A stretch of 64,000 bases of DNA. Source: Sipunculus nudus (Eukaryota; Annelida; Sipuncula; Golfingiida; Sipunculidae). Where the stretch lies: the NCBI GenBank assembly GCA_026874595.1, contig CM049318.1, forward strand, positions 49,998,750 to 50,062,749, read 5' to 3'. The notes beneath the pieces are model-generated. The model was not told the DNA's origin and searched no databases. It saw nothing but the letters and a program-made list of their open reading frames with translations. Made by a program: the position numbers and the translations under genes. Positions 21,863 through 63,922 of the stretch are shown here, in pieces (the stretch's first letter is position 1; the number at the start of each line of letters is the position of its first letter).

Positions 21863-21963
21863 ATGGGCATTTCAGCTCGGCCGATCTGGACTCTTCTGTT
21901 ATGGACCTTACTGACCTCACCGACCGACCGCCTATGGACAAGTGCTGCAGAGGGTGAAAATCC
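21863..21963 (+). CDS. Exon 1: signal peptide
   Basis: The first ATG after the TATA box is in good context (taccATGG). The first residues, [20 protein letters not shown], form a hydrophobic secretion signal with probable cleavage near residue 28 (after WTSA). The exon ends in phase 2 at a gtgagt donor. The large intron 1 (21964-23159) ends with an (AT)n tract about 50 bp before the acceptor and otherwise holds no feature I recognise. Confidence 0.85.
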
Positions 21964-23114: not shown

Positions 23115-26100
23115 ATCTGATCTTATCGTTTCTTATCTTCTGCATCGTTTGATTTTCAGCGATGGCCACTACTGTGATTATACCGAGACAACCAAAGACT
23201 CTAAGGAGGACAGATGCGGCAACTTTATGATGATGGTGTTGGACGGCTATAATCTAGACCGGAATGCCTCAGGTCTGAGTCACATGACCGACCAGCAGCT
23301 CCAGGGCTCCATCAGTCAATGGCAGGCCAGTCCTGACCAGAGCCCAACCTGCGTCTACGTCCGGTAAGAAAAACCATGATCCTCAGGTCACGCCAAAAAG
23401 TTCAGTGTTCTACAGACTCTTTGGAAAAAATATGGTGTTAGCGGGGAATTTATTATTATTTTGTAGGATCAAGTTAAGGTTGATAGGAAAATTATAATAT
23501 TTATTTCAGTTATTTAATGTTGGAAATAATGAACACAACATTCATCCATTTCTCTTATTTATATTTATATCTATACCAGTTCTGTCTTTAAACATGTCAG
23601 GTATTTTCTCAATGTTTTTTATTAAGGTTACTATTGAAGTATTATAAAAATATTGAACACTTTATACCAATGGTCAAGTAGTAGCCAGGCATCAAAAGGT
23701 TGTGTCTGAAATTTCTATGATTACACAAGTTTAACGTAAACAGAAACATACACAAAAATATAATTTACAAGCTGCAACTTTCTTTCTCTATGAATGGAAT
23801 CCTTCTCATTCACCAAATAGTTGATGTTTGACGTACAGATAATAAACCTCTGCAAGGTTGGGATGAATAAATTGTTTTATCATTTGATATTTAGTTCCCC
23901 TCTTTGCAGTTTTAGGCAAAAGTTCTGACAGGTTTTGATGAAATTTTGTGGAGGTTTAAAATAAAACCGAAAAAGAAATCCATCAAATTTTGAAGGTAAT
24001 CTGAATCACCATAATACGTTTAAATTCAAAGCGTTATTTCCCATTGATTCAAACGGCAGGTTCATTATAATAGAGATATTCATCGATTTTTGAGGACGGG
24101 TTTGTCCTTGAGTTAATCTCGGCTTTTAGATGACGTAGTGACAAGCCCTCCCTGTGTTGCTGTGTAGTTTAATTAGAATTCTAACGGAGCTTGTGGTCTC
24201 TGATAACTTTCTTTTTCTTTTTTTTACAGATATATTCGGCAGACAGTACGCAAGTGTTGTGGCGGCTGGAAAGGGGAAGGCTGCGATGAACGTAAGCCTG
24301 TTATTGACAAATAGATATATAATGTATCCTGTACTCTACTGTGCTATAACTATACGATATTATTCTATTCTATACTATACTTAACTGTACTATGCCTATA
24401 CTAAGTATATAAACGTAACAAAATATTATACTTTGTTACTAAATTACTTTAAATTACTTAACTAGTTTATACTGAGTATATAAACTTGACAAAATGCAAC
24501 GAAAGAAGTAAAATGCTTGTTAAAGTTATGCCTTTTCGACCTCTTAATATAACAATAAGTTGCACAAAAATGCTAAAAAGAAGATCACACATAGATATTC
24601 ACCAGGATGACCGGCATATAGTGCGATAATACACGGGAGTTTACATCATGTTGTTGTAGCTGAATGTAGCCTAGGCTGTGAAAACGGTGGTGTCTGTACA
24701 GCTCCCGGTGTCTGCTCCTGTCCAAGTGGATACGTCGGCTTGCGCTGTGAGGATTCACTAGACGGTAAGAAACTATACCTTTAGTAATACATTTAGTGAA
24801 CCAGATAACCTCGATAAAATGGTCGCATTTTCGAGGCAGTCGTCTAAGAGACACTATAAACGCTTCGATATCCGGCGTTTTTTTTTTTAATATTTGTAAT
24901 AATAAAAAGATATAGGAAAATAAATGTTGAATACGCTTTAAACCTATGTATATATGTACATCTCAGCGTGAATTTCTAAATTGTCCTAGGAACTGTCTTT
25001 AGTTAATGCTTTTAATTCTTTTGTTACTTAAGGCTAATCTTTTTATCTGTAAATTATCAATTTTGAATAGAATAAACTTGTCCAAAAGAAAATCTTGAGG
25101 AATTTAATTAATTACTTCTCTTGTATTGTGTAATCGAAATTGTGATATATATTCTGACACATTTTCCTTTCACTTTGGTATACGCCAGTTTATTTTAAGA
25201 ACAGTCCTATGACTTTAGAGAAAGTTGAAACCACATCAGCTAAAGACTTACCAAGATGAAACTTAGTTTTTTTTAAAATTAAACGGATATATCACCATCG
25301 TGTTGTAAAAAAAAATTATGCAAAATAAAGAAGCGTGTTTTTTGAGTATTCAATCATACGGCAACTTGTACATATCAAGATGTGACGACATAGAAATATA
25401 GGAAGTCACATGAAATCTGCCTCATTTTGAACCCGTTTGACCTTTGCGTTACTTTATGTTCTTTAACGTGTTTGGTTACTTTTTTAACGGTTACTTTACG
25501 TTTTAAGATAACATTTGTGATGTTTGCAGCAGTTACAGCTGAGCTCAAGTACTGTTACACCCGAAGCAGCTGTTTTGGAGACAAACCAGAGGGAGCTGAC
25601 GGTATTGTCATGACTCAGCAAGAGTGCTGCGACGGTAAAAAAGGCGGCGGCTGGGGGGTCCAAGGCCAGGAATGTAATGCTTGTCCAAAGGAAGGTGACG
25701 ATGATGAAGATGATGGCGGCTTCAATGGTCAACCATCCAGTAAGATTATCATTCTTTAATACTCATAACTTATATTTGCTTTATCTATATCTTATTTATG
25801 GCCACTATTCACTCTAAGATGTGGTCATGTTAGTGGTAACCATCGACAGAGCGCGATCACGTCACAGATAATAATGACGTCGCATTCAAACAGCTGTGTG
25901 GTGATATAGGGTGACTAATCTAAACAAAAACGAACGGCTCTTATTTCTTTATTTTTGTGTGCATGCATGTCCTCCCGTGCTACGATGTCACAGAAATTAA
26001 GTTGTTTTCAAACAGATTTTTATCATAAGAACGTTATTTACACTTATCAATGTGTACCTCTGCGTTAGGGGCCTAGTTCAATAACGGATTGAATGATCTC

Positions 26101-29100
26101 TGGAAATGTCAGATTATATATTCTGAATGTAATAAACAAAAATGTATGAAACAAACATGTTCTCAGCCTGGGAAAAGCTAGCATTGTTAAAACTCATTAT
26201 TTCCAAACTTAAGCTTATGTATATACGGGTAGTTTGAAATTAAATGATATGAAAAAAATATGATTCAAGTTATATAAACTAAAAAAAATGATATATCTCT
26301 TTTATATTGAAATATATGTAAATCTGGTATGTAAAGCAGATATAACAATAAAATGATACGTTCACGATAATAAGAAAATATCTAACAGTTACAAAATTAA
26401 TCTCAGAAAATTATTTTACAGTTGTTGACAACGACGCCGGCCTTGGATTCCGCACTTGTATAAGCTATGGCCCTAACTATTACCGCACATTTGATGGTTT
26501 GGAGTATCTGTTCTCTGGCCGATGTTCCTACACCGTGTTTAATGATGGTATCCGCTACGTGCTTGTGGAAATGGTTAACTGTCATAAATACAGCACCTGC
26601 CAGAAGGTAATGTTTTAATCTATCTGTCTGTCTATCTGTCTATATATAACTTTTTATGTTGTACGCAAGTGAATATACGTGATAATATAATTTCCATGAT
26701 ACGAAAATGTTCCGCCTATGAACATGAACAACGTGACGCCCACCCCCGGAAGCTTGCGTATTGGGATATTATAACTAGAGATGACCCTTTAGCTAAGACA
26801 TCAAGAGCATGCGATACTAACATTATTAATGCAAGCAAATTATCGCAGAGTCCCTTGAAGATACGGCATGGTTTAAACAATCACTCACACAACAAACACT
26901 AGCGCCCTCTGCTGAATACTATGTTAACTAAAGTTCTTTTAATGCAGCGATTGACCATCATGCCGAACCAGCAGGAGACCATTGTCGCCATGGGAGGCAA
27001 CATCACTGTCAACGGACAACCCATCAGTGTGTCAATGAGCAATGGCTATGCTTCTCCACACTCAGGTAAATATACTAACAGAACGAGTTTCTCAGTAGCT
27101 GACCCGGAGGTGGTTTAAAATCAATTTTTGTGGCCTCTGCCTTTTTTTCCGGAACTGAGGACCTTTCATTAGTCTTCTCTTGGTCGGAATCCCTCTCCTT
27201 CTAAAATTCTGGACCCGCCCTTGTTATTGTTATGTATGAGACCTGAGAAGACAAAAGCTGAATTCGAAAAGTCCTGCATTTAGAAACAGAGGATGGTAAC
27301 CGTTAATGATAAAAACAGCATGTCTCAAAATTTTTTAAACAGAAGCCCAGAGGGAGACAGTACTATGAAATAGCTATTTGTACTCTGGTTAGGATATGTA
27401 AATCTGTTGCTGCATTTGTTAATACTATCGGCTTCAGATTCATTCTTGTCCAGGAAGGCTTAATTTGGCAACATAGCACATCCGGGTCTTTCGCTGTAAT
27501 GATTAAAACACTGAAATCACGCGCCAGAATACAGCGTCGTCTGATTTAGGCTGGAATTCTTTATGGCCTTTTCCGGATTGAAAAGCATTTATTTATCAAA
27601 TAATAATCATAATATGATTTCTGATAAAGGTCCAGTAATATGCTAATTGATAAATGATAATAAATATTATAATTATCGGTGGTATCACTCGAACTATGTG
27701 ACGCAACTCCCCTATGCGGCCAAGCCTCGGAAATGACCATTTAAAGTCTTGAACAGTCTGGAACAATGCCAAGTGTGTCCTAAGGGATACCTTTTTAATA
27801 GTTAGCTGTGAATCAACACACATTTGACATTTTTCCACGAAGTGTCTGTCGCAACGCACCTATCAGAAACTACGCTTCTCTGTATAGGTGACTGAACTTT
27901 CAGCGCCATCTGTCGTATTTGGAATGAAACTCAAAATAATGGACATGAAACACTCTAGCACAGTCATGTAAAAAAATGGTTGTTTTAACAAGCCTGTTAT
28001 ATCTTATCATTGTCTTAAAATGCAAAATTCTTCCATTCAAAAAACTTCTCATCATTACAGGCACTCGTATCGAGGATCGTGGCGGCTTCTGGCTCCTGTC
28101 ATATGGCTTCATGAGGGTCAAGTGGGACGTTCTCTCCACATGGTATCTGACTTTGGACGAGAAGGCTAAAACAGAATCAGTCAACATGATCGGTCTATGT
28201 GGCAGTTACGATGGCAATCCATTGAGTAAGCCATTGAGTAACATTTAATACATGTACAAATCTCTTATATAATTAGGAAACTTATATAATTAGGAAGATT
28301 GTCAAAAGAATGCAATGCCTTTTTCCTAAAATATGGTAGTATATTAGAGCTTTTGGCTGCTTCTTTTGGGAAAAAAATACATTTCAGTATTGACTTTATT
28401 ACGATTATTACAGGATGAAAATATCTATTTTTTTTTCTAAATTAGGTTGAAAATAATTGCAGTGTTATAGATTTCGATATATTTTCGTTGTTGTACTTTT
28501 CCTGTTTTTTTTCACAAGCTATCCATATAAATCATGAAAAATATTCCAAAACATATTTTCAATCAAATGTAATGTGGATAAAAAAAGATGTGATCTGTAT
28601 TTCAGCACTAAATGCTTTTTTTTTAAATCGTGGTACTTGGTTTTACACATGTCTAGCTACACTGGTTCAGGATAGATATACATATGGTTTTTTACATCAG
28701 TTGATGTCCAAGGAATTTGTTACTGATGTTGATCCTGGTTCTGTTTATAGATGACATGAAGATGTTGAGCGGAAACATAGCTCGCACAGCTGCTGCCTTC
28801 GGCAACTCGTACAAGCTCCATTCAAGCGTAAGTCGGGTTCTTTTAAAGATTTGTTGAATTATGAATGCAAGAATATAGGAAAAAGCATGACTGATACATA
28901 TAATTATTATCATTTACGATGTCTTATATCAATAAATTATAAATTGCAATTTATCTACTGGTATGTGTGTAAACATATATTGAAATATATTGATTCAATA
29001 ATTGAACAGTTAATCGTTAAAATATTCAGTATTAAATGTATTTAATAAAAGATGTAAAGAGACAACTACTAAATAGGATATCATGATTCTTTCTCACAGT

Positions 29101-32100
29101 GCCCCGACGCCTCAAACAGTGAGTACATGTGCCAGACTCCAGAGATCGAACAGCAAGCTAAGCACGAGTGTGGCCGCCTGAGGGCTTCTCCATTCAGCTC
29201 CTGTCACAGCACGGTAAGCAGAGCTTTCCTCGGGCTTTACAAGGACTTTATTATTTAATGGCCCTTTTGTTTTTCAATTATTAATGCCATCTTGGGCCTA
29301 CGCTCAACAGCCCCCATCCTCTCTGTTCCATTTAAAATATAAAAAATAGAAATACACGTTTAATACAGAACAAAAATTGCATCTCACACGTTTGTTTCCC
29401 TTTTTCTGCATTCGGTACTGACTCAAAGCAGTACAATAATTATTGTTTTAGTTTGATCCCTGCAATGTAGAGACATAATTTAATTATCATGTTTTTATCT
29501 TCTGTAAATTTAAATATACTTGTTTTAAATCCAACATAAATATTAATTGTTTCTATGTTCTATAACTTATTGTATTTTTTATTACTGTCAAGCGCATAGA
29601 AACTTCATGTAATAATGCGCATCTAAGTATATATATTAATCATAATATTGTATAAAGTCTACTGGCATTCCCGGCACATTTGTCCACCTGGGCCAGGGTT
29701 TTGAGCCCCCCTCCCCCTTCGAAATTCCTTTATCCGCTCCTGCTAAATACGAGTCTTAATTTTTTTTTCTTGTTAACTTTAAACTGGTGCATGAATTGTA
29801 TTGATTTTTGCACGATAAATATAACCCGTCAAATTAAAATATGTTGATTTAGAGAATTATATATAAAGGAAGCTCCATTATTGAATACTTCATCGTAATT
29901 GTGTGTTATTTATGAACAAAGACAAAAAAGATTCAGTTTCAACGTTACTATTAACTTTATTCTCATCATGATAATTAGCATTAATACGAATTTAAACCTG
30001 TCACTAAACATACGTAACAAAGGTGTCAAATACATAATTTCAACGCATTCGTTTTTTTATTTACCTGTTGGTATGACTTCAGTTCTCCGTTGTATAAATA
30101 AAATAGCAATACAATGGATCGTCAAAGGAAGTTAGGTGAATGAAAAGTCAGATACCATATAATGGAATGAAGTCTTTCATTGCTAATGAGTAAGTAAATA
30201 AAATATATTTATAGCATCTTTGTTACCTTTGTTTAATGGCTAGCCAGCGGATGAATATATACGAAAGGAACACAATGTGCAATCTCTGTGTACTTCTGCC
30301 AGGTCGTTGTAAATCACTTTTACAACCGCTGCGTGAACGACTACTGCTCAGCGCACATGATGAACGGAGTAGAGGACCAGCAACAGGAAATGCAGGTGGC
30401 GCTGTGTAACTCCCTCAGCGCTTACAGCCAGGAGTGTTCCTCCCGCGGTGTCGTGGTGGAATGGAGAACAGCCAATCTCTGCCGTAAGTATCATAGATGT
30501 GACGTTATACGTGTTGTATTTGAGAGAAACAGTCTTCGGGTGTTTGTTTTAAATGAGACTGCTGGAAATTTTGTTCAGTTGCATCTACGTGTACTACCTT
30601 TTCCAATATATGCAGGCTAGTTGTACTACACACAGTACTGTAAAATGTAGAATTCACGTTTTTTTGTTTCCATTTTGAGGTAGTTTGCCTTTAGTCACTT
30701 TTAGTCATTTTGTATTTTATATAATAAAATGATATATCCATTTTTAAAAATACGGACTTGCTGACCCATAGGAGCTAACACCTTCGGCTTGAGAGGGTTG
30801 ATTCTTTCAGTCTTAGCTTTACATCTTTATACCAAAGTGAAAAATATATTGCAAGGAGAGCATATTATATCCGGCAAAAAAAAAAACAAGAAAGTGAAGT
30901 TTATCTTATTTCAGCATCAGCTTGCATTTACCTAAAGATTGATATACATTTTGATGGAATGTTTGTCATGAAACATATAAAGGGATATATGAAAGGAGAT
31001 ATTCTTGAATAGGGATTATGGAATTTTATACGAAAACTTTACGTGCCACCTTTCTCTCTTTCGCAGCTCGCTCTTGTCCAAATGCTATGCACTACACGGA
31101 GTGTGCCGCAGCTTGCCCAAGAACCTGTAACACCTTGTACAGCGTGATGCCCAGTGAGTGTGTGGGTCAGTGCTACCCAGGCTGTGAGTGCCCAGCTGGC
31201 ACTTTCATGCACAATAATAAGTGTATCGCCGCTGACGACTGCCCATGCTCATACCAGAAGAAAGACCACGAGCCAGGCAGCGTGGTCAAGATAGGCTGCA
31301 ATTCTTGGTGAGTGTCCATGTCAACATTTTCACGATTTCTGTTATTTACGGTATTATCTGCATCTGAGCGAAATTCTGTTTTCAGACGTTTAACAATTCA
31401 GATGGTATAAGTATCTCACGCCTCACGAAAACGGTAACTTGAATCATATTAGTGAAAATGCAACTGTTCTGGTGTGAAATCAGTTTTGCTTTATTAGAAA
31501 AAAAATAGTAATAATCCAGTAGGTTGTCATACACGAAGTGTTTCACGGAATGAACACAAGATGGCGCTGAGGCGCAGAAGTGGTTCTACAGTATTTAATA
31601 AGTGAGACATTTTAGGTATCCCATTACTAAGGGAAGATAGAGGGTTCGCATTTTCTTTTCAAAGCGCACTGTCATTACTTGAGATGAGAATGTACTTAGG
31701 CATTGGTTTGAGGCATTGGGTGGACATTTTCAAGCCCAGTAAAGACATAATTTTTTATTCAAAGACGCGCATGTGCGTCCTATAAAACACTCGTACTTTG
31801 ACAGGCTTAATACATTTAGTCCCAGGTAAAACCTGAACAAAAAACCGCAGAGGGAATGGTACCCGAAAGTCGACTAAACCGATTACAGCGTCAATGAAAC
31901 TGTTGTAAAAATTGTATTAATCTGAGCAAACTTACGCTTTTTTTTCACTAAAAAAAGTTTGTTGAAGTTATAATTAATATAAGTTAGTACTGAAGAATTT
32001 TGCCGACTGCTACTTTTCATTTGGCACTTCATTCAGAGTATCAGTTTTTAAGCCTTCCCAGCCCAGGCGATCTTAAAAACAAAATTTCTTACAATTCAGG

Positions 32101-33873: not shown

Positions 33874-33928
<55 letters not shown>

Positions 33929-39900: not shown

Positions 39901-40082
39901 TCAATTTTAAATATTTCTTGAGAAACGTTAGTAACAAATTTTCAAGAAATAGATGCGTTTGAATATGATTTTGAAACCGAGCATGCTCTTCAAACTTTCA
40001 ATTTGAAAACAGCACATTTTAATGCAAAGAAAATTGAACAACAAAATAGAACAACCTGAATTAGTATTATTACGTAAAATAT

Positions 40083-50474: not shown

Positions 50475-50507
<33 letters not shown>

Positions 50508-53500: not shown

Positions 53501-56092
53501 CACCTACAGTGCCCGTCACTACATGTGAGTAAATGTATAATTTTTAACCCATAGCTGCAGTTTGAAACGTTAAATGATTATAAATAAATATCCTAGCCTA
53601 ATAAGAATTAGTCTAATTAGCGGATAATGAAGAACAAAAACTTTGAATAATGAACAGAATAAAAAAAAAGTTATTTTATTGATTTACACTTATGCAAATT
53701 ATTAAAGAGCATATATTTATTCTCAGCTATGATGTCAATATTCATTGTTAAAGGTGTAAAGCGTTTTAAAGCATTGTGTGGTTTAACGCTATATACATGA
53801 AGCCAATAAGCATTCGAGTTGATAAAGTAAAATGAAAAGTTTTCATGTGAAAATGTATCTCTACCCATGAACCATTTTGTTCTTTTCACTGTACCTAGAC
53901 TAACGCTATCATGGTATATGATTTTAGCCAAATATGTGTGTGAGAGCGACGCGCTTTTGTACGTTGACTCTGACAATCGTGATCAGTTCAAGATTATGGC
54001 TACCTCTAACGGCGCGGATGCCCCGGATTCACTACTGAACTCTGGCACCGAATGGGATGCCTCCCTAGCCGGTGCCAACGAGGAAGAAATCTTCATCATG
54101 CTCTATCAAGATGACGTAGAACTCCAGGGTGTAACCTACACCGTTAAGGGTGTCGCTGCCACAACTATGCAGCTCGTAAACACCAACGGTGTGATTGTGT
54201 ATGAAAAGGTTAGAAATGATCAGCGCCATTGATATTTTTTATTTTTGTGTCATATTAAGAAGAATATGATTGTAAAATCATGGTTCATTCTTTTTCTGTT
54301 AACTGATATATCTGAGTGTGCATGATTTGTATTAAATTCCATAAACACGTCAGAGCCTTTGCAAATATAAGAGGGACGGATATTTGATCTTTCACTGATT
54401 GAACGGACTATAAACGAGCGTATTCGAAAAGAAAAAAAAAACATGCGTCATTAACACCGGCTTATAAATTTAAATACTAGATCAAAGATAACAGTGAATT
54501 GTTTCTGTCACAAAACTAATTCAGGTATCGAATTTTTATTAAAAGGACACATTTGGACATATATAATTAACAGCAGTCCCAATAAACTATATGGAATGAA
54601 TTGTATGCGATTTATTAAAAAAAAGTGATATATGATAAACTAAGAAAAATGTGGGAATTTAAAATTCAAATATATTACTTATTGTGAAAATTGAAAGAAA
54701 GCACATTCCAATCCCCAATTAATTAACAGTCTGCTCGGTTCTCTTTTAGCTTTGACAGATTATATTACTTATTTTGAAAACGCACGTTAACATCCCCACT
54801 TAAGTAACAACTTGCTTGTTTGTTTTCTTTCAGGCTTTCACAGACCTGGCAGGAGCTTCTACAGATATTGATGTCGATGTACCAGCTGGAAACTTTGGCA
54901 ATACCATCATGATCCGTTTGATCAGGCTGGACGGCTACTCACCAGTAGTTTCTAACCTTCAGGCTGTTTTCTGTGCCTCTCCGAGTACGTCAGGACTTAC
55001 ATTATAAGTACTCAAGGATATCTTATAAAAGATAAATGTAATTAGCACAAGTTTACCGTAAGGGATCATTGTCCACAGGATATATGTTATCGAATTGTAC
55101 ATGGTGCGCAGTATTTTCTTAATGATGTTATTAACGACAATAAAAACCGGAAATTCAACTTTAAAACCGGAAAATTCCATAAAAAAGTCACAAAACGCAG
55201 ACCAAAACATATTTAGGTATAAAATATTCAATAATGGGAATATAAATTCATTATATATAAATATATATGATATATAAATTCATATATATAATTTTAAGGT
55301 AAATGCATATATATTGCTTTTCAGTTACTACACCAACTGTCGGAACCACACCAGGCACTGGCACGGCCACCACAGGTATAATACGCCAATCACTTAATTT
55401 ACAATATGTAAAATCATGTAATATATAAAACTGTTATATGTAAAATTATGTAATATGTAATTCAATCAATACTAAAATACTTTGTGTTTAATTTACCGTT
55501 CAGGCAATTAAAAGGGCCAGGTTTTTGTCCATACTGCTAAATGTTAAAACTGTTTTATCAACATAACGTCGCATCACTTCCAGCTCTATACAGGGACCCC
55601 TGAATTTAAGTGGACTGGGGCAGGAGTTCGTCCTAGTACTAATGGATGTTGAGTCCTGTAATATCTCCAAGTCCTACAGGAATTACTTTCCTCTCTAAAA
55701 ATCAATTGAACCAAATTTATAACTTGGTAGAAAGCAAACTTAGATATTACAGTTTGGCAAAATAGATCAATTCTCACATAACCTTCATTTATTTATGTGT
55801 GCCCTGCTCAACTTTAGTTATGACGACTTCACCTACATCTGTGACAACACCTACGTCTACAGCAACCGGGACTCAACCAATCACAACTGTCACCGTACCA
55901 TCGACAACAAGTAAGGGATTCTTCCTTCTAGTTCTACCTGTCCTTTTTGATAAAAAACAATAGTGTTTATCAAGGACGTTTTAGGGAGAAATGCACGTAC
56001 ATTTCATGTGCCCAACATAAAACGGCACTCCTTTGATTATGCTGATAGAGAGCGGTAAACTAGTAAAATCATATTAAATATATATTTATAAA

Positions 56093-56134
<42 letters not shown>

Positions 56135-59100
56135 CACAGATGGGAGACCGTTCCCCCTCTTCATTACTAAATCAATGACATTCAATTCATTAGATAACAT
56201 TCGATTAGAAGACCTATGTATAAATTAAGATTATACTCTCATCATTCCGCTAAAGATAAAAAACGGTGTATTCTAAAACACAATGTAATATTTTGTCAGC
56301 TGGATATTACTGCGCTGAAGAAGACCTCCTGAAAGGAGACTATAGCGCTCTACAGGAAGGCCACATCTCCATTGTTGCTTCGTCGCATTCTTCTGAGACA
56401 ACTGCAGCTGATGCCCTGGAGAACTCCCCTGATGAGAAATGGGAGGCTAGATCCCATCATGCCTCTTCCGAGATGATCATGGTATCCCTGGACAGCAGCT
56501 ATGGCAACAACGATGTCGCCCGCATCATCTTCACCGTCTCTGGATCCGACCGCGTTCTCGTCGAGATTATGGACTCTGACGATGTTGTAGTTGACACTAA
56601 GGTAGTATTATCATTCCGGTTATGTTGTGTACAGCTGTTGTATCAAGGTAAGAACAAAAATAATATACATTCGGCGGCGCCAGCATAAATATCCATTCGC
56701 CCAGTTTGTACTATTGAATATTTTAACTTAATGAAACTTTATTTGTATTTTGCCGCAGATCCTTTTTATTTATGTTTTAAATAGAATAATATTGTTTATT
56801 TGGTATTTAGAAATGGTAGAACTATGGCTAAGTAGCTAATGAAACAGACATTCTAAATTTAATTATGCCTTATATTCTTTTTCAGGAATATAATGATCTG
56901 AACCCTCAAGAAGAATTCAATGTGAATGAGCACTACCCACTTGGTACAAGCGGACGTAAGATCAGAATCACGGTCTACCGTGTCAATGGACTTGTGCCAT
57001 GGATGTCCAACCTAGAGGTCAATTTCTGTACACCAAAAAGTAGGTTACCTGCCATCTCTATCCACGTTTGCGCTATTTGTTATCCACTAGTTTATTTTAC
57101 TAGAAAACAAACATGATTGCAGTAATTCTTGTGACTATAGTTATTATATAAACGCCAGGGCAAACATCTCTTGCATTATATGCTCATAATGCCAATAGCG
57201 TCATACTAAACATTTTTAGCGTTCCGTGAAAATCTAGCCCCATGCATTTTTTTCAGTTATTTTAAATACTTGCACCCCCTTGGTATTAAGATGTGTCCAT
57301 TTCAATATCATTTCGAGTTTAATCTGCTGTTAAATTAATCATTTTTTAACTGCCGTGATACTGAAGATACTAAAATAGATATATGGTATTTCAGAAACAA
57401 CGCCTTCACCGACCCAAACCCCTACCGTGTCTGTCACTCCAACAGGTTTGTACACTTTGATAGAAAACGCCCGTGTGTTTTACCACAATCATTCAATGTG
57501 TAAGACAGCAAAGTAAATCAACATAAATATGTGTTAATTTCTAAACAAATGATTAATAATAATACTAACTGAGATATGCGTTTGCATCAAAGATAGATGA
57601 TTAATAAATTCCTGTTGTCCTACCAAACACTTTAGCACGACGATGATTACAACCTGAAACAGTATCGGGTGTGTATGAATTAAAGCACGATCATATCTCA
57701 TCTTCCAGGGCCATAAAGAAATAGTGTTGTATATTCATATTAAATTATACATATTTGTCCACCATTCTTTGGAACTGGCACTTTAAATCCTTGCATAATC
57801 AAATAGCTGAGGTTTGTACAATAACCAAGATGTATATTTTTTTATATTTAACAGTGACCCCAACGTCGACATCCACCGGGACCAGCTACACCACGACCCC
57901 TATGACGTCAAGCACGCCCACAGGTGAGCATTTTGAAGTTTTTTTTCTAATTGCTCCGTCTTATCAGAAATAATTTGACACCTTTTTGTCAACCCTGATT
58001 GTCATCAAATATCATCTCCAAAATTTCCAAAGCTTCTTAAGATAAATTGTTAATGAAACTTCATTACGGTTTCCCTGTGTGGTGCATGCAATACTTTCAA
58101 GTAACTTATTCAGCTCTTATGACAACTCTTTGTTAGAACGTATTTTTATTATTGCGGCCACAGGTCAGTTACCCTTACCTTTTAACACTGATAATAAACA
58201 AAACAATATAGACTGAAATAAACGTGGGATAATAACTTGAGTTACAGTGAAGTGAATGCGTCATTTATGCTTATACGTATCATGTATATTTTTACTCACA
58301 GGGCCAATGTATTGCGAAGAGAACGATATCTTCTACGGAGACTACACCGCTGTTGTTGATGGCGATATCTCTGTGAGCGCTTCCAGCGTAGATGACGATT
58401 CGGCAGTAGAGGGCGCCATGCTCGGCAGTCCTGTGGAGACATGGATGGCGTCAGCAACTGAACAAACTCAGGAGACCTATACTGTCACGCTCGGGGCGGT
58501 ATATGGAGATCAAGAGATCACTCGTGTTGTATTTACTATTTATGGTGCCAGTACAGTTACCATTGACATCATGGACAGTGATAATCAGCTGGTGGATACG
58601 GAGGTATTTTTTATCGTTCCCTAATGCATATGAGAACTTACAATATCAGTAGCATGGAAATTAACATGATCCATTGCCGGTCGACTGTATTCTTTCACTT
58701 TGTGTTAAGCGTAGTTAAATATATTTAAATTAGTCATATATAATTAAATAAGTATATCCAAGACGTAAATACATACAATGTAGATCACACGTACATAGTA
58801 AAGATCTTAAAGTACTACAGGATGAAAATGACTTAAAAAATTTTACTTCAATTTGCTATGGACTGTACAATAATATATCTACATCTATGACTAGAAAAAT
58901 TAATACAATAAGTATCCTGCCTGGCAAAATATACTTTTTTAAATAAAATACGTATCATGAAAAAATGTGAAATTAGTGACCAGAGAGAAACCATGTAAAT
59001 AAGTAGCGTGCTGTTTTCAAGGTGTACGAGGAGTTGAAACCTCAGGATGAGAATGCCATCAACCAAAGATACCCTCTTGGTGTCGCTGGTAATCGTGTCA

Positions 59101-62100
59101 GAATAACCATTGACCGCGTCCAGGGCGTTGTTCCATATATTGATTCTTTGGAAGTCCACTTTTGCATGCCAGCTCGTAAGTATGCTAACTTCAAATAAGC
59201 ATCAACAGTTTTTTATGTATACTAAAGGGGTCCGTGTGTCGGAAAGATCCCATCGTGGTATAAAGTGGTTAGAAAGTCGCAAAGGATCTTAATTTTCAGT
59301 TCATGTATCAGTATATATATACAATATCAGTTTTTTTATGACAAGCAAGAACACCTATAAGAATGTGTTTGGCGTTGCTTTACACATTAGGTTGATGTCC
59401 TTGTGAAGTGCCTAATGTGCTCAATGTCCCGACTTTATATTCATATTTATATTGTAAAATCACATGAAATACTTCAACTATATTCATTTAAAATTATCTA
59501 TGAATACTTCTACGTAAGCACGTAGTAACACTTTTTAATAGACAAGTTAATGAATTTGTAGAGCATTTAATGATTTATTGATGTACATGGCAGCAACCAC
59601 AACACCAGTGCCAACAACACCGACGGTAACAGCATCACCAACAGTCCCAGTCACCTCAACGACACCAAGCGGCACGACAGTAACCACGCAAACCAGCACA
59701 TCAGCCACGTATACACCCACCGTACCCACGACAACCTACGTCACAACATTGAGCCCAACCACCCCTACATCCACGGCCACTATGGGAACTGGCTCTACAG
59801 GTAAGCCAGCCACCACTTGTAGGAAGCTGAACAAGCCTCTGTTTGGACAAAATATCATTTACTTTCGAAAACGCAGCATTTTACAGATATTTCGAAATTA
59901 TTATGGTTTCAATGTAAAAAATGTATTTTCATATAAATTGTCACATCCTTATTGTCCGCCGCTTCCTTGAAAGGAACGGGGATCATTGATTTGGGTTTGT
60001 CTGGCTGTCTGTCTGTCTGTCCGTCCGTCAGGTTTTTCGTTTCCATGCGATAGCTTGCCTTAATTTTAACCGATTTATTCTAATTTTGGTCTGTAATTGC
60101 TCTCATGCTTGCCTTGGTTGGGATTGGTTTAAGAGCGTCTGTCTCACAAGATAATAATACAATATGATATCTCATTTTTTATATGATGAATCAGCACATT
60201 TAGTTTCCCTATTCCCTAACAGGTGTTACTAGCGGTGTACATAAAATACTTGATTTTTTGCAGTACCTGCCGGGTGCTGCCATCTTTTGAGCGTGATTTG
60301 TACTTATCAAAAACTTTAAAATCAAACCGGACTTGAAGGCGAAAATACATTTTGACACATATTGATAAAATTAATATTTCCTAAATACACAACATACAGA
60401 TTTATGTGTAGAGATATTAAATATATCATTGATTCAAAAACTTATAAAAAATTAACCTCACAGCCTGATGTGTAATGTCACGTGACTTTGTTGTAGTTGC
60501 ATACTGTGAGGACGACGACGTCTTTTCTACTAACTACAGCTCCTTGGAGGATGGTATTATCTCTGTTGTGTCTTCTTCGCATACAAACCCATATACCACT
60601 GACATGGCCATGGACAGCAGTCCAGAGGGAAAGTAAGGGGTTCATATTTTGGTTTGTAGTTTTCTTTAATGTTTTAAATTTATATTTTATATAATGCTTC
60701 AATATCATAATAAAATTAATGTTCGATAATTCATATAACAAACAGATTTGATTATGTTTATTTGTAAGGATGATTTGTTTCAAACTTATATATTATTAAA
60801 TTTAGGCTGAGACAAAGTATCATATGCAAATAATACATATGTCATTAAACGGATTACTGGTGAAAAATAAAATTGCTCGGTTCGCAATACATTGAAATAA
60901 TTAATGTTTTATTTTCAGATGGGAGGCTTCATCATCACTCTCTTCCATGGAGCTATTTGTTCTGAAGCTAGAGCAAGGAGGTGAACCAGACGTTCACCGT
61001 GTGTACTTCAAGGTAGATGGCGCCACCACCGTGGAGGTCGAGATCCTTGATGCTGACGGTAACCCTGTGGATCTTAAGGTCAGTTATAAAAAAAATAAAA
61101 GTTTTAACTTGACACGAGTCAGTTGTGATAATTTTTATTAACTTAATTATAAGGTGCTATGGTAATTCTCTTTATCAATTATGTTAAAAAAGCAAGCAAG
61201 TTTATCGACTAACCCTATATGTTTACGATCATTTTCCTTGCATTACACCAGATGGGTTTTCACGGATGAATGCATTAGGTCAACATGCCGTGGACTGATT
61301 TAACCATTTCGAATCCAGTACTGCAGAAAATGTTCCTCTGTATATGTTTTCAAAACATGATAAATATGCATCATGATTTGTTTTGTTACTTGATTTATCA
61401 TCTTTTTTTGAAACTTGACAGTACTTTCAAATTACATCATGGCTTAAGTATAACTAAAATAAAATCCAGGCACACAAGACATGGACGAGCAATGTTAAAT
61501 AAAACCTTGAGGATTTTTAAAGCCAGTTATTAACTTGCCTTATCTGCAGAATATATGTGATATCCGGCCAACTCGGTGACCATATTAATAAACTTATGGT
61601 AATGCCTGCTAAGGTTGGTTCTTATAATGCCTCCATGACCTTGTTTATCTACACACTTTAAGTAAATACGTTACATGCTGAAATATTGACAAACAGAAAA
61701 ATTACGTAAATAAAGGTGGTTGTTTGCATGTATGAGAAAGTTGAAAGGTCACTAGCTGCAAATGCCCTTTGCAAAATTGGTTCTTCTGACTTGCCACCAG
61801 ATGTCCTTATTGAATATGTTCGATAATTTTGCCGTCTCCCACGTTATTAATACGTGTATGTAAAAGAACAACCTAGTGCGGTGGAATAGGCGTTTTTCCA
61901 GGCCTATCTTAATGAAAGTTCGAGGGTCCCTTGATCAATCACTTATCTTTTTCACAAATACTGGTCTTACAGACTTAACATTTACATATTTAGCAACAGA
62001 ATTCGTGCGCCTTCCAACAAAAATGTAACGATTATAGGACCAAATAAAACTGCTGTATGTACTCCAAGTACAAAATATATGGTGCGAGCGAGCTAGGAAA

Positions 62101-63922
62101 AATATAAATACTCGCTCCATTGTAAAAATGGTGCATATAATTAACATTATCCAGACCTCGCGAGAAATATCTCTTAAAATATCAAGAAATGAGAACAGTT
62201 TAACAACATTACATAGGACCTGTTCCTCGTTGCCGAAAAGGTATCTAAAAAATTGGAAGCAACAAATCCGTAAAACTACTTTTTGTGTGTGCCCTTAAAC
62301 ACTTGGAAATGTCCAGGATCGCTTTGACATTGATTTTTGGGACATTATTTTTTAAAGACATAATGACAATAGTTTTACGACCTTTTATGTGTAGGAATAC
62401 CTTGAGTTCAATACCAACGGGTGGACAGAGATTGACGAGAAGTACCCACTCGGTACGGAAGGAGATCAGATACAAATCACCATCTACAGGGCTTCTGGCA
62501 AAAACCCAGCAATCAAAGACCTCCATGTAGAGTTCTGTATACCCCCTCGTGAGTATTATCCTTACACACGTATAATTATGTGTCTCTCCTAATTTTAGTG
62601 TTTGAAGAGCGTATCTTTATACTTACGGGGTGATATGTTAAAAAATTGTTTCACATCATTCACAGCTGGTGTTGTATTATCGAAATATTAATTTTTATAC
62701 CACTGAGAATAAGTTGACGAAAAGTTTATTTGAATAAAAAAATCCATCGGGCCATCGTAAATGGCATTGATAATTACCTTTACTTAACTATTCCTTTCAT
62801 TAGTCCATGATTGATGTTGTAAAATGAATAAGAGAACGAGTACATTTCTTAGTGTTTATTATATAACAAACATATGAAGTATTTGAACATTACCTTCCTG
62901 GTATTGCATAGGGATTTTCATTATTTTATGGCTAATACAATAGTAAATGTCATCCTAATTTGTTTCGCGGACTGAAAATCAGTCGGCAGATGATGTAATC
63001 AGTCATATTTCAGAAGAGCACAAAATACCATATTTATAAAAGATGCACTTTATAAATTACACCTATGGACACAGCAAAGTAACGATAAAATCGTTATTAA
63101 CATCAGAATCATCTTAATAAAGTAATGGCATACTAAAAGACTGCAATAGTTAAGTGACGATAAGGGTACTTCAGATGTATATGTGTATGTGTTAATCATG
63201 GCAATGGAGACCTTATTTTGTTCCTCTTAAGCAGCAAGAGTAGAAAAACAATGGCAAAGCACGTACCTAATTTTACATACGGTTTTTAATATAGCGACCC
63301 CATCATATGTACCCACAACTCCAGCCAGCACAACACAGGCGACCACTCCGACGGGTCCTGCTACTACCCCTACTTCTACCGTGAAAACTACAACAATCGC
63401 TACAACTCCTGGCACAACCGTGACGGCAACGTCATCCTACTGTGTCATAATATGTGACGGAGTCTGCATCACTAACACGTAGGTCTTAACTTAGCTTTGT
63501 GACATAATCCGTATTCAGAGGATAACCACCATTAATAATCATGCACGATTTGAAAGTTGTCAAAATGTTATAAACCAATATATGTGACATAAGTAAAGGT
63601 TGTAGAAGTTTTGCATATAGTATAGAATTCTTCTATCGTGTATGACATATGTGCCATATGTCTACCTTTCACTCATATCACTCCTTAAAATGTTGACAGA
63701 TGTGTTATAGACGACCAAAATTGGTTCAGCTTAAGTGCTAGGTACATATACAAACAAACCACAGTACAATTATTAACAATTCTGTGTCAAATCAAACCCA
63801 CGAACAATTTGCCTGCCTGTGAGAGTGTGTAACTGCATACAACTGTGACATTGTTATCCGTAGTACCCAGATTTGTGATGAGATCATCGACTGTCCTGAC
63901 GGAGACGACGAGAAGCATTGTG
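21863..63922 (+). CDS. Giant secreted SCO-spondin/hemolectin-like vWD-mucin protein (3' incomplete)
   Basis: Fifty-nine exons were joined by hand at GT-AG sites. Phases agree at all 58 junctions and give 9,037 coding nt, about 3,012 residues, with no stop. The last donor (63923) leads out of the window. Domain order: signal peptide, EMI, EGF, a TB-like module, three vWD-C8-TIL units with one extra TIL, four LDLa, seven F5/8C-like modules alternating with Thr/Pro/Ser linkers, and a fifth LDLa. Such proteins are secreted, disulfide-linked gel, clotting or extracellular-matrix components. The EMI-vWD x3-LDLa-F5/8C order is that of SCO-spondin; hemolectin shares vWD, F5/8C and LDLa. No TSP1 repeat or cystine knot is in the window, so orthology is unsettled. 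Terminal exons, alternative splicing and single-base exon edges need transcript data. Confidence 0.88.
23160..24291 (+). CDS. Exons 2-3: EMI domain
   Basis: Exons are 23160-23363 and 24230-24291. Residues about 35-122 start [10 protein letters not shown] and end with the signature [10 protein letters not shown], preceded by [16 protein letters not shown] domains are small Cys-rich modules at the N-termini of secreted multimeric proteins, including SCO-spondin. The intron between (23364-24229) holds nothing recognisable. Confidence 0.85.
24660..24764 (+). CDS. Exon 4: EGF-like domain
   Basis: A single phase 1-1 exon encodes six cysteines in EGF order ([20 protein letters not shown], then GYVGLRC), residues about 123-157. 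It follows the EMI domain directly, a common pairing. Intron 4 (24765-25529) shows only AT-rich DNA. Confidence 0.9.
25530..25739 (+). CDS. Exon 5: TB/properdin-N-like Cys module with acidic tail
   Basis: This is a phase 1-1 exon, residues about 158-227. It contains CYTRSSCFG, a vicinal pair in [14 protein letters not shown], and CNACP, then an acidic Gly-rich linker ([13 protein letters not shown]). The CC...GWG...C..CP pattern resembles TB (TGF-beta-binding) domains and the properdin N-terminal module; assignment by pattern only. Intron 5 (25740-26421) holds nothing recognisable. Confidence 0.6.
26422..31307 (+). CDS. Exons 6-12: first vWD-C8-TIL unit
   Basis: Exons are 26422-26606, 26948-27065, 28061-28225, 28751-28827, 29100-29213, 30303-30483 and 31067-31307. 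The vWD domain (about residues 236-409) has [20 protein letters not shown] at its start and [11 protein letters not shown] later. C8 follows (410-507, with eight Cys-type spacing), then TIL (508-588: [38 protein letters not shown]). The oxidoreductase-type CGLC motif of vWF is reduced to IGLC. Exon 8 has a tandem donor 12 nt downstream. These units mediate disulfide assembly in vWF and gel-forming mucins. Introns in this block are AT-rich, with G/C-rich dispersed-repeat words near 27190 and 29705. Confidence 0.88.
26899..26915 (+). promoter_or_regulatory. CTCF-like motif in intron 6
   Basis: The sequence ctagcgccctctgctga matches the core of the animal CTCF motif (complement of CAGnAGGGGGCGC-type). 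Single match in an intron; occupancy cannot be judged. Confidence 0.3.
32146..35813 (+). CDS. Exons 13-18: second vWD-C8-TIL unit
   Basis: Exons are 32146-32287, 32798-32874, 33385-33634, 34081-34251, 34913-35156 and 35549-35813. A short VWC-like stretch ([15 protein letters not shown]) leads into vWD2 (about residues 605-790; [19 protein letters not shown], later [12 protein letters not shown]). C8 follows (about 790-882, with [13 protein letters not shown] and CKYDMC), then TIL (883-971: [25 protein letters not shown]). As in unit one, the first Cys of CGLC is absent (QGLC). Intron 15 (33635-34080) contains an imperfect 100-bp direct duplication with a long AT tract. Confidence 0.88.
33720..33946 (+). 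repeat. Imperfect direct duplication with (AT)n in intron 15
   Basis: Copy 1 (33720-33816) and copy 2 (33817-33946) share ggtaat, agacatttt, acaatgaatctggtatgag and gagtctgtattttaatca. Each has an AT tract in the same place, about 12 bp in copy 1 and about 50 bp in copy 2. Tract expansion after duplication explains the length difference. Confidence 0.85.
36048..36068. repeat. Poly-C tract in intron 18
   Basis: A run of about 21 C followed by accctcccccgccacc, in the intron between exons 18 and 19. Confidence 0.95.
36242..37320 (+). CDS. Exons 19-21: extra VWC/TIL unit
   Basis: Exons are 36242-36440, 36835-36926 and 37271-37320. Residues about 972-1085 encode [13 protein letters not shown], then a TIL core ([41 protein letters not shown]) and a VWC-like end ([14 protein letters not shown]). 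This TIL has no vWD/C8 of its own and inserts between the second and third vWD units. Confidence 0.82.
37637..42096 (+). CDS. Exons 22-27: third vWD-C8-TIL unit
   Basis: Exons are 37637-37984, 38364-38578, 39072-39202, 39634-39743, 41521-41670 and 41997-42096. vWD3 (about residues 1085-1270) begins [20 protein letters not shown] and has [10 protein letters not shown]8 spans about 1273-1352, and TIL about 1353-1436 ([33 protein letters not shown]). Only this vWD keeps GDPH, the site of acid-triggered autoproteolysis known in MUC2/MUC5AC; cleavage here is inference. The long intron 25 (39744-41520) carries the antisense retrotransposon. Confidence 0.88.
40075..41415 (-). mobile_element. 5'-truncated non-LTR retrotransposon in intron 25
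   Basis: The element is antisense to the host gene. Its 3' end (left) has a run of about nine TTTA units (40085-40120), read as (AAAT)n on the element strand. Short-repeat tails in place of poly-A are known in CR1/L2/Rex1-like elements. Upstream similarity to reverse transcriptase stops at about 41415 at in-frame stops, so most of the element is missing, the usual outcome of target-primed reverse transcription. Confidence 0.82.
40382..41338 (-). pseudogene. Reverse transcriptase C-terminal fragment (CR1/Jockey-like)
   Basis: This is an open frame of 318 residues holding the RT palm and thumb: [20 protein letters not shown], then the catalytic [12 protein letters not shown] box. The conserved C-terminal region follows ([45 protein letters not shown]). 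The frame continues in phase upstream to about 41415 ([15 protein letters not shown]), then ends. The endonuclease and N-terminal RT motifs are absent, so it cannot be autonomous. The frame has no internal stop, suggesting a fairly recent insertion. Clade is judged by motif style only. Confidence 0.88.
42321..44854 (+). CDS. Exons 28-31: four LDLa domains
   Basis: Exons are 42321-42481, 42990-43106, 44235-44363 and 44738-44854, each carrying one LDL-receptor class A repeat (about residues 1450-1611). Calcium-cage ends are visible: [32 protein letters not shown] and [10 protein letters not shown]. The first exon starts with the end of the preceding VWC-like segment (CTEGKFEC). The repeats are phase 1-1 and bind ligands or calcium in extracellular proteins. 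Intron 29 (43107-44234) is over 1 kb and shows no feature I recognise. Confidence 0.92.
45505..46877 (+). CDS. Exons 32-33: F5/8C-like module A
   Basis: Exons are 45505-45746 and 46709-46877, residues about 1611-1748. The module is Cys-bounded, beginning [17 protein letters not shown] and ending [15 protein letters not shown] phase-0 intron splits it in the middle, as in all later copies. It is the most divergent and shortest copy. The fold is inferred from copies E-G, which look like F5/8C (discoidin) domains. Intron 32 (45747-46708) holds a gcgccatctattg word near 46188 and no gene. Confidence 0.6.
47581..49064 (+). CDS. Exons 34-36: mucin linker and F5/8C-like module B
   Basis: Exon 34 (47581-47637) is a 19-residue Thr-rich linker ([18 protein letters not shown]). 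Exons 35-36 (48118-48401 and 48902-49064) encode module B, residues about 1767-1916, from [19 protein letters not shown] to [16 protein letters not shown]. Boundaries are phase 1-1, with a phase-0 internal intron. A (GA)n tract (47700-47731) lies in intron 34. Confidence 0.65.
47700..47731. repeat. (GA)n microsatellite in intron 34
   Basis: About 30 bp of GA dinucleotides just downstream of a linker exon. Confidence 0.95.
49571..51448 (+). CDS. Exons 37-39: mucin linker fused to F5/8C-like module C
   Basis: Exon 37 (49571-49768) begins with about 37 residues of [19 protein letters not shown]-type linker encoded by near-identical accacaccaagc units, and continues straight into module C ([20 protein letters not shown]). 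Exons 38 (50541-50713) and 39 (51292-51448) complete it, ending [14 protein letters not shown]. The extra intron inside the first half and the linker-module exon fusion set this copy apart. An (ATT)n tract at 50475-50507 precedes exon 38. Confidence 0.65.
51896..53524 (+). CDS. Exons 40-43: four mucin-linker mini-exons
   Basis: Exons are 51896-51937, 52190-52237, 52847-52966 and 53480-53524 (42, 48, 120 and 45 nt). All are multiples of three and phase 1-1, so each can be skipped or duplicated without a frame change. They encode about 85 residues almost wholly of Thr, Ser, Pro, Val and Ala (for example [15 protein letters not shown] and PTVPVTT), the expected substrate of O-glycosylation. Confidence 0.78.
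53928..54984 (+). CDS. Exons 44-45: F5/8C-like module D
   Basis: Exons are 53928-54208 and 54834-54984, residues about 2177-2321, beginning [20 protein letters not shown] and ending [16 protein letters not shown]. Inner features in F5/8C order: an [18 protein letters not shown] stretch, a W (EWDASL), and late [11 protein letters not shown]. Confidence 0.65.
55325..55910 (+). CDS. Exons 46-47: mucin-linker mini-exons
   Basis: Exons are 55325-55375 (51 nt) and 55818-55910 (93 nt), phase 1-1, encoding Thr/Pro/Gly/Ser-rich sequence such as [16 protein letters not shown] and [17 protein letters not shown]. Confidence 0.75.
56097..56132. repeat. (AT)n microsatellite in intron 47
   Basis: About 35 bp of TA repeats, 170 bp upstream of the exon 48 acceptor. 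Confidence 0.95.
56300..57039 (+). CDS. Exons 48-49: F5/8C-like module E
   Basis: Exons are 56300-56601 (302 nt) and 56886-57039 (154 nt), residues about 2369-2521. The module begins [20 protein letters not shown] and shows the F5/8C series: [26 protein letters not shown], a hydrophobic MVSLDSSYG strand, [10 protein letters not shown], and the terminal [20 protein letters not shown] followed by VNFC. Exon sizes are identical to module F, pointing to a recent duplication. Confidence 0.72.
57395..57923 (+). CDS. Exons 50-51: mucin-linker mini-exons
   Basis: Exons are 57395-57445 (51 nt) and 57855-57923 (69 nt), phase 1-1, encoding [16 protein letters not shown] and [20 protein letters not shown]. 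Exon 50 has the same length as exon 46. Confidence 0.75.
58302..59175 (+). CDS. Exons 52-53: F5/8C-like module F
   Basis: Exons are 58302-58603 (302 nt) and 59022-59175 (154 nt), residues about 2561-2713. It begins [20 protein letters not shown] and has [53 protein letters not shown] and [14 protein letters not shown], ending SLEVHFC. This copy gives the clearest F5/8C (galactose-binding-like) reading. Confidence 0.72.
59594..59800 (+). CDS. Exon 54: 69-residue mucin linker
   Basis: This is the longest single linker exon (207 nt, phase 1-1). It is almost entirely Thr, Pro, Ser, Val and Ala ([19 protein letters not shown] and onward). The coding strand is rich in acc/aca/cca codons in short near-repeats, so replication slippage could change its length in frame. 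Confidence 0.78.
59960..60290 (+). repeat. Dispersed-repeat fragment with CTGT/CCGT tract in intron 54
   Basis: A ctgtctgtctgtccgtccgtc run (59999-60033) followed by nonrepetitive sequence resembles the arrangement beside the satellite element near 1035 and the repeat at 3895. No gene. Confidence 0.4.
60497..62548 (+). CDS. Exons 55-57: F5/8C-like module G
   Basis: Exons are 60497-60632, 60919-61078 and 62395-62548 (154 nt, as in E and F), residues about 2782-2932. It begins [18 protein letters not shown] and has [44 protein letters not shown] and [20 protein letters not shown], ending VEFC. An extra intron splits the first half next to the conserved W. Intron 56 (61079-62394), over 1.3 kb, shows nothing I recognise. 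Confidence 0.72.
63295..63922 (+). CDS. Exons 58-59: mucin linker and split LDLa domain
   Basis: Exon 58 (63295-63478) encodes about 50 residues of Thr/Pro/Ser linker, then [13 protein letters not shown]. Exon 59 (63864-63922) adds [16 protein letters not shown], together a somewhat unusual LDLa repeat. Exon 59 ends in phase 1 at a gtaag donor, so the gene continues past the window. Intron 57 (62549-63294) and the last 78 bp hold no other feature. Confidence 0.75.

Follow-up and report, generated by a model that had tools for sequence, protein, structure and literature searches.

The window, a stretch of 64,000 nucleotides from Sipunculus nudus, has the composition of animal-type genomic DNA (32-45% GC in 2-kb steps) and carries on its plus strand an open gene model that runs from a start ATG at 21863 to 63922 in 59 exons and 3012 codons, with zero stops and with GT-AG introns throughout. 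Exons were found by purpose-written splice-aware dynamic programming, trained on Cys-rich exons, and were then curated by hand. The in-window features, with the evidence for each, are as follows.

21863..21963, + strand: exon 1, with the start codon and signal peptide (gene model; second-copy counterpart 71% identical)
23160..24291, + strand: EMI-like region, exons 23160-23363 and 24230-24291, with CC-G-W-G-C at its end (motif; no Pfam EMI)
24660..24764, + strand: EGF-like domain exon (EGF_2 E=0.0011, below cut-off)
25530..25739, + strand: TB-like domain exon (TB E=0.00056, 20.1 bits against a cut-off of 22.2)
26422..31307, + strand: D1 (VWD1, C8-1, TIL1, start of E1), exons 26422-26606, 26948-27065, 28061-28225, 28751-28827, 29100-29213, 30303-30483, 31067-31307 (Pfam VWD, C8, TIL, VWF; PDB FCGBP, MUC5AC, vWF)
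32146..35813, + strand: D2 (VWD2, C8-2, TIL2), exons 32146-32287, 32798-32874, 33385-33634, 34081-34251, 34913-35156, 35549-35813 (Pfam; best match is D2 of vWF, MUC2, MUC5AC, MUC5B)
36242..37320, + strand: D' (TIL', E'), exons 36242-36440, 36835-36926, 37271-37320 (fourth TIL stretch; aligns with vWF and MUC2 D')
37637..42096, + strand: D3 (VWD3, C8-3, TIL3), exons 37637-37984, 38364-38578, 39072-39202, 39634-39743, 41521-41670, 41997-42096, with the C8-3 intersubunit-type cysteine at 39653 (Pfam, structure alignments)
42321..44854, + strand: four LDLa domains, 42321-42481, 42990-43106, 44235-44363, 44738-44854 (Pfam LDLa, 4 stretches, E=2e-27)
45505..46877, + strand: module M1, A 45505-45746, B 46709-46877 (gene model, module alignment)
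47581..47637, + strand: Thr/Pro/Ser linker exon L1, phase 1-1 (gene model, composition)
48118..49064, + strand: module M2, 48118-48401, 48902-49064 (gene model, module alignment)
49571..51448, + strand: linker L2 and module M3, 49571-49768, 50541-50713, 51292-51448 (gene model, module alignment)
51896..53524, + strand: Thr/Pro/Ser linker L3, four phase 1-1 exons, 51896-51937, 52190-52237, 52847-52966, 53480-53524 (gene model, composition)
53928..54984, + strand: module M4, 53928-54208, 54834-54984 (gene model, module alignment)
55325..55910, + strand: Thr/Pro/Ser linker L4, 55325-55375, 55818-55910 (gene model, composition; acceptor 55818 low)
56300..57039, + strand: module M5, 56300-56601, 56886-57039 (gene model, Pfam sub-threshold, module alignment)
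57395..57923, + strand: Thr/Pro/Ser linker L5, 57395-57445, 57855-57923 (gene model, composition)
58302..59175, + strand: module M6, 58302-58603, 59022-59175 (gene model, Pfam sub-threshold, module alignment; acceptor 59022 low)
59594..59800, + strand: Thr/Pro/Ser linker L6 (gene model, composition)
60497..62548, + strand: module M7, 60497-60632, 60919-61078, 62395-62548 (gene model, module alignment)
63295..63922, + strand: Thr/Pro/Ser linker L7 and fifth LDLa, 63295-63478, 63864-63922 (LDLa E=0.009, below cut-off)

With phase ignored, no neighbouring site up to 30 bases away outscores the chosen one at 58 of the 59 donors and at 54 of the 58 acceptors, a ranking that serves as a consistency check rather than as proof because the splice matrices were partly trained on the same exons; acceptors 55818 and 59022 score low. 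The initial annotation had placed the gene at 21863..63922, which equals the first and last base of the in-window model, but the gene is not finished there: with 130 kb of the same contig downstream of the window added to the modelling, it runs 91 kb past the window end to a stop at 155477 (positions beyond the window are given in window numbering). The full model, on the genome's own assembly, comprises 123 exons over 133,615 bp, with 50,265 coding bases, 16,754 residues, a single terminal in-frame stop and no non-canonical splice site. Past the window come modules M8-M22 together with Thr/Pro/Ser exons, the longest of 5,805 nt, and then a C-terminal part in the order LDLa, TSP1, module, TIL, TSP1, cystine knot and last module. 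A first-pass model of 149 exons was rejected because it over-predicted small exons and contained 4 stops, and a His/Asn frame of the downstream Thr/Pro/Ser exons was likewise rejected and replaced by the Thr/Pro/Ser frame. Omitted from the full model are a spurious last exon at 175370 and a partial module at 81966-82145, an A exon for which no B exon was found and which is perhaps a relic of the M13-M20 type; the finder exons 65909-65915, 66221-66307 and 72564-72570 were swapped for two module B exons. Translation through the knot exon soon reaches a stop in both copies of the gene (the second copy is described below), and an earlier gene end, at the stop within the read-through knot exon, is possible.

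Other elements lie near or within the gene. A Harbinger-type transposon pair occupies 5542-9131 of the window and consists of a MADF DNA-binding frame on the plus strand (5542-6114) and a DDE_Tnp_4 transposase frame on the minus strand (7707-9131), accompanied by a third frame (6044-6880, plus strand) whose match to NumbF is below cut-off. A reverse-transcriptase fragment, probably LINE-type (RVT_1, E=4e-18; 40385-41422, minus strand), sits inside the longest in-window intron, between C8-3 and TIL3. Scans for tRNAs and Rfam families found nothing.

The predicted protein begins with a hydrophobic N-terminus, taken as a signal peptide by eye, and continues into a head for which the proposal of three vWD-C8-TIL units with LDLa is borne out by Pfam matches above curated cut-offs in the window protein (VWD x3, E=6e-75; C8 x3, 3e-33; TIL x4, 7e-24; LDLa x4, 2e-27); the vWF-like domain PF23244 is also above its cut-off. 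The extra TIL is that of D', so that the head is a complete D1-D2-D'-D3 assembly, as at the N-terminus of gel-forming mucins, while the succession of three VWD-C8-TIL units and an LDLa array is that of SCO-spondin. The remaining N-terminal domains of the initial annotation stand less firmly. EGF and TB-like domains are matched by Pfam at the right place, the EGF lying between the EMI-like region and TB, but both fall just short of their cut-offs (EGF_2, 19.7 bits against 22.1; TB as listed above). Profile searches for EMI and vWD, on which that annotation had staked its reading, found vWD strongly; EMI has no Pfam match in the window protein and is represented by its C-terminal CC-G-W-G-C motif, 14 columns that 1 of 200 shuffles matched equally well.

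Comparison of the head with solved structures returns FCGBP, MUC5AC, vWF and MUC2 via the D domains (E below 1e-149) and LRP2 through the LDLa part. The D2 part is closest to D2 of vWF and mucins and the D3 part to mucin D3; for D1 the matches are ambiguous. Over the last part of VWD3 together with C8-3, the best single matches among solved structures are MUC2 (117 bits), MUC5B (110), MUC5AC (103) and vWF (72). Dimers of MUC5AC D3 are joined by Cys1132 in C8-3 and Cys1174 in TIL3, and the C8-3 cysteine is reported to be partly reduced in MUC5AC and MUC2 D3 (PMC11933400). The equivalent of Cys1132, placed by counting on the alignment, is retained here as GGDC (codon 39653); Cys1174 falls within an insertion that is absent here, so that one of the two D3 intersubunit cysteines is kept. 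None of the three VWD domains retains the first Cys of CGLC (they read IGLC, QGLC and EGLC), and one MUC2 VWD likewise reads QGLC.

Seven Cys-bounded modules alternating with Thr/Pro/Ser linkers had been described beyond the LDLa array. In the window, M1-M7 each comprise 136-151 residues with one Cys near each end and none between (7/7), and there are indeed seven linkers (53-62% T+S, no Cys, 352 aa in total), with exons in phase 1-1 except for the last, which continues into LDLa. However, the alternation is not strict, as M1 adjoins the fourth LDLa directly, and the number seven is an effect of the window, the full model holding 22 modules, of which 13 were recognised by sequence and 9 placed by exon pattern. 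Pairwise identity is 37-43% among M5, M6 and M7, 24-28% between M4 and those three, and 13-26% between any of M1-M3 and any other, and M1-M7 are regarded as one family largely because of their shared gene structure: a phase-0 intron at alignment column 104 or 105 splits all seven, and a phase-1 junction follows each. M8-M12 and M22 resemble the window modules in sequence; for M13-M21 the count relies on the pattern and length of exons, supplemented in M13-M20 by the position of two Cys. M22 has no Cys and M21 has four. A 17-module profile (M1-M9, M12 and seven second-copy modules) finds M22 (27.4 bits) and its second-copy counterpart; M15, M20 and M21 (4.2, 4.3 and 1.4 bits) lie under the best of 120 shuffles (6.1), and none of M13-M21 scores above shuffled controls with a profile of the other modules.

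The name F5/8C, originally given to these modules, is not fully supported. The Pfam F5/8C model (PF00754) matches M5 and M6 at 12.7 bits (E=0.14, profile positions 2-114 of 127) against a cut-off of 28.2, with no F5/8C match at E<=1 in M1-M4 and M7; of 12 modules taken from the two copies, 4 reach E<=1 (best 0.044). For a family named in advance, E=0.14 over 24,736 Pfam models amounts to about 6e-6 before any correction for the seven modules, a suggestive value. A hand-filled module consensus matches F5/8C at 17.1 bits (E 0.0064) and an unrelated coronavirus family slightly better (0.0058). The profile-built consensus of M4-M7 has no F5/8C match and reaches 23.2 bits for XRCC1_N (cut-off 21; 0 of 6 shuffled or reversed controls), and the M1-M7 consensus matches neither family. 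By hhalign, the XRCC1 N-terminal domain scores 33.5 against a profile of 12 modules (best shuffle 16.9) and 23.4 against 23 modules, equalled by none of 60 shuffles in each case, and 27.6 against M4-M7 (0 of 150 shuffles); its score of 16.9 against M1-M7 is not significant (6 of 150 as good). Classical F5/8C, represented in hhalign by six domain sequences, scores 13.3 with M4-M7 (100 shuffles: mean 11.4, maximum 17.0), 11.0 with M1-M7 (100 shuffles: mean 10.6, maximum 14.9), 13.3 with the 12-module profile (8 of 60 shuffles as good) and 14.9 with the 23-module profile (1 of 60). As a control, hhalign recovers discoidin from F5/8C at 98% and XRCC1 from F5/8C at 0.12%, and is thus insensitive across the superfamily. 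Profile search of the PDB returns, best first, a biofilm adhesin (8e-5, in several weak stretches), XRCC1 (0.005) and RNA-binding RRM4 (0.012), and further down chitosanase domains (0.065), an F5/8C protein (0.66) and concanavalin A (0.86); the searches with M1-M7 and with M4-M7 gave nothing below 0.03. XRCC1-N, the chitosanase domains in question and F5/8C form one jelly-roll superfamily. On this weak and partly conflicting evidence from sequence, the modules probably belong to the discoidin (galactose-binding-like) superfamily, and they are not assigned to the classical F5/8C family.

The long Thr/Pro/Ser region that characterizes gel-forming mucins is present downstream. Twelve large Thr/Pro/Ser exons, each encoding 182-1934 aa, contribute 10,635 aa in total (48% Thr, 15% Pro), and windows rich in T/S/P hold 66% of the full model (11,103 of 16,755 letters, stop included). 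A second frame of the long ACN repeats is nearly stop-free as well, so the reading frame of these exons rests on splice phase and composition. Between 83683 and 141939 lie eight near-identical modules with long Thr/Pro/Ser exons between most of them. DNA identity is 92.1-99.8% among M13-M20, 99.1% between M8 and M10, and 99.5% between M9 and M11, which points either to recent tandem duplication or to an assembly repeat.

At the C-terminus, Pfam recognizes TSP_1 in 3 stretches (3e-20), LDLa (1e-6) and TIL (2e-7), and a fourth TSP1, of the spondin type, reaches 26.3 bits against a cut-off of 41; TSP1 repeats and TIL thus occur in the C-terminal half, as in SCO-spondin. The cystine knot matches Norrin in the PDB (E=0.003 over 82 query residues); all five matching rows are Norrin, with no vWF or mucin CTCK among them, and there is no Pfam match to CTCK at the C-terminus. 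VWD4 near the C-terminus is a MUC2-type feature, and none is among the Pfam matches of the scanned C-terminal pieces. After the knot comes a Cys-free module (154181-155477) that both copies have, which means that the knot does not end the domain series of this model; a stop follows this module shortly after in both. The union of a SCO-spondin-like head and a mucin-like body in one gene, as first proposed, is supported. The TSP1, TIL and CTCK-like knot downstream are types of domain also present in SCO-spondin.

A second copy of the gene lies 8.7 Mb away on the same contig. With M6 as query, a search of the window's own assembly (1.43 Gb in 153 contigs) gave eight matches among the best candidates, which alone were scored, all at the window locus or at C13:41.31 Mb. 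In 120 kb at the second locus, matches at E<=1e-3 exist for 75 of 106 exon pieces, comprising 49 of 57 window exons (the eight misses are all linkers) and 26 of 49 downstream exons; among the 23 downstream exons that are missing are all 16 that encode M13-M20, an array without a match in the second copy's region. The order of the window exons is the same, with the exception of M4, whose best match lies further on. The two proteins are 86% identical over the head (dN/dS 0.086), 68% over M1-M7 (0.117) and 80% over the C-terminus (0.128). These ratios come from 63 of 79 exons, the 16 dropped being linkers, two linker-shared exons, very short exons, M4B and one short alignment; module dS, at 1.9, is near saturation. 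All three parts are under purifying selection. Between the copies, blastn covers 68% of the exonic and 2% of the intronic bases of the window gene. The conservation of exons in the second copy, the low dN/dS, the concentration of blastn matches in exons and the intron shared by the modules place the originally annotated pattern beyond chance. The next closest relatives of the D3 VWD in the genome are found at C13:11123518-11134741 on the minus strand, with 33-47% identity.

The second copy contains a single open Thr/Pro exon of 27,279 nt (C13:41323487-41350765, phase 1-1) that encodes 9,092 residues (49.6% Thr, 20.4% Pro, no Cys) with no in-frame stop. Another frame of the repeat is interrupted by just two stops, and the frame was set by composition and phase because openness alone proves little. 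The exon exceeds that of MUC16, at about 22 kb among the largest known for a mucin, and is possibly among the longest protein-coding exons of animals.

Taken together, these data make it quite probable that the locus holds one gene for a giant secreted gel-forming mucin of the SCO-spondin type. This reading is supported by the open 123-exon model, D1-D2-D'-D3 with its MUC2-like D3 and retained GGDC, the Thr/Pro/Ser exons, the TSP1, LDLa and TIL domains, the Norrin-like knot, the conserved second copy, and the related proteins in limpet pedal mucus and snail mucus. Counted against it are the absent TIL3 cysteine, the partial reduction in mucins of the cysteine that is kept, the loss of CGLC, the absence of VWD4 and CTCK from the Pfam matches of the C-terminal pieces scanned, the all-Norrin matches of the knot, the two near-open frames and modules M13-M21, which do not score above shuffled controls. 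Most likely the product is secreted as a polymer linked by disulfides, gel-like or adhesive in nature, and serves as an epithelial gel or adhesive mucus rather than in clotting or in brain fluid. Of the roles initially offered (clotting, mucus or matrix), mucus or matrix gains support, with nothing found that speaks for clotting.

By analogy with the assembly of vWF and mucins described in PMC9169620, chains of the putative mucin would dimerise through CTCK in the endoplasmic reticulum, and in the Golgi, at low pH, D1D2 would align two D3 parts. The aligned D3 parts would then join via the conserved C8-3 cysteine, as in vWF and mucins, a step that is less certain than the others because the TIL3 cysteine and CGLC are lost. 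Storage of the chains would be calcium-packed, perhaps with help from LDLa, and secretion would be followed by swelling, owing to dense O-glycosylation of the Thr-rich part. In the middle of the predicted chain, 20 Cys-bounded modules are interspersed with more than 10,600 Thr/Pro/Ser residues, two further modules being C-terminal; the modules would form disulfide-closed folded knots on a glycan brush, at the position of CysD in mucins, and would give carbohydrate, surface or chain-to-chain contacts.

A somewhat doubtful alternative, which overlaps with this explanation, is a protein for temporary adhesion or cementing whose activity resides in the modules and not in a gel, as perhaps also in sea urchin Nectin with its six discoidin domains. 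Tandem discoidin domains in Nectin, the recurrence of vWF D and discoidin domains in temporary adhesives (PMC10057474) and the occurrence of the SCO-spondin-like P-vulgata_3 in adhesive pedal mucus (PMC7333891) are consistent with such a role, but the account of Nectin in PMC10057474 describes no VWD or mucin parts, and by profile tests the modules are not classical discoidin domains. It is unlikely that the gene encodes a SCO-spondin orthologue of nervous, fibre-forming (Reissner-fibre-like) function with the Thr/Pro/Ser stretches as secondary spacers. This alternative differs from the mucin reading on function, not descent, a mucin being compatible with SCO-spondin orthology; the domain kinds held in common with chick SCO-spondin (PMC8487547) and the C-terminal TSP1 and TIL domains agree with it, but T/S/P-rich windows take up two thirds of the protein, and four TSP1 repeats (three above cut-off, one below) compare with 27 in chick (PMC8487547). 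Very unlikely is a division into two or three adjacent genes, with a SCO-spondin-like gene ending at about the fourth LDLa and one or more separate module/mucin genes beyond it. In its favour is limpet P-vulgata_3, a protein of 1604 aa with a stop for which C8, vWFD, TIL and LDLa are the only domains listed (PMC7333891). It is opposed by the lack of an internal stop and by phase consistent over 122 junctions (phases chosen by the finder and hence not independent), by the location of LDLa and TSP1 downstream of the modules, and by the second copy, which repeats the series from signal peptide to CTCK in conserved order. Nothing beyond the similarity of VWD and discoidin-like domains favours a clotting protein.

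As a bolder reading, we tentatively suggest that SCO-spondin and the gel-forming mucins may be one lineage and that this gene may be both at once, with ends of the SCO-spondin kind enclosing a true mucin middle. That middle would evolve very fast, built by tandem amplification of module/Thr units in one copy and as a 27-kb exon in the other. The gene is a genomic example, intact by model, of SCO-spondin-like ends joined to a mucin body, in groups usually kept apart, and it opens to expression studies and trees the question whether a slime polymer gave rise to the Reissner-fibre protein. A further suggestion is a mucin with modules of probable discoidin-superfamily membership where vertebrate mucins have CysD, and two copies that built the long Thr-rich region in different ways. 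The predicted protein is also a candidate for animal gels and underwater adhesives, and the gene suggests a reason why transcript assemblies of such genes may come out shortened. Literature searches on this architecture and its relatives turned up no account of such modules, joined in series by mucin linkers, between the head and the tail of a SCO-spondin, which is weak evidence of novelty.

Among known systems, sea urchin Nectin, a secreted adhesive of 984 aa with six discoidin domains, resembles the predicted protein in its tandem discoidin-type domains and differs in that VWD, LDLa, TSP1 and a mucin part are not described for it in PMC10057474. Limpet P-vulgata_3, a SCO-spondin-like protein of pedal mucus, 1604 aa long and with a stop codon, shares vWFD (x3), C8 (x2), TIL (x2) and LDLa (x5) with the gene, whereas modules and a mucin part are not among the domains listed for it (PMC7333891). 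Cornu aspersum Spondin1, from snail mucus, has alternating short Ser-rich and Thr-rich regions and 12% Cys and was judged a likely mucin (PMC10475054); it is spondin-like and Ser/Thr-rich, as is the present protein, and the VWD, module and CTCK architecture is not described for it in that source, which, citing others, terms vertebrate SCO-spondins orthologs of invertebrate mucins. Chick SCO-spondin comprises EMI, three vWF-D, one FA5/8C, 13 LDLrA, 12 TIL, 27 TSR, 7 vWF-C, 3 EGF and one CTCK (PMC8487547). The gene resembles it in three VWD with C8 and TIL, an LDLa array, TSP1, TIL, a CTCK-like end, an EMI-like start and modules that are probably of the discoidin superfamily, and departs from it in having 22 modules rather than one FA5/8C, Thr/Pro/Ser exons that add about 10,600 residues, four TSP1 repeats, an EGF between the EMI-like region and TB, and a second gene copy. 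With MUC2, MUC5AC and MUC5B it shares the N-terminal D1-D2-D'-D3, the Thr/Pro/Ser middle and the CTCK-like end, its D3 being nearest to that of MUC2; unlike these gel-forming mucins, it lacks the second D3 cysteine and CGLC, shows no VWD4 among the Pfam matches of its scanned C-terminal pieces, possesses LDLa and TSP1, and carries other modules in place of CysD.
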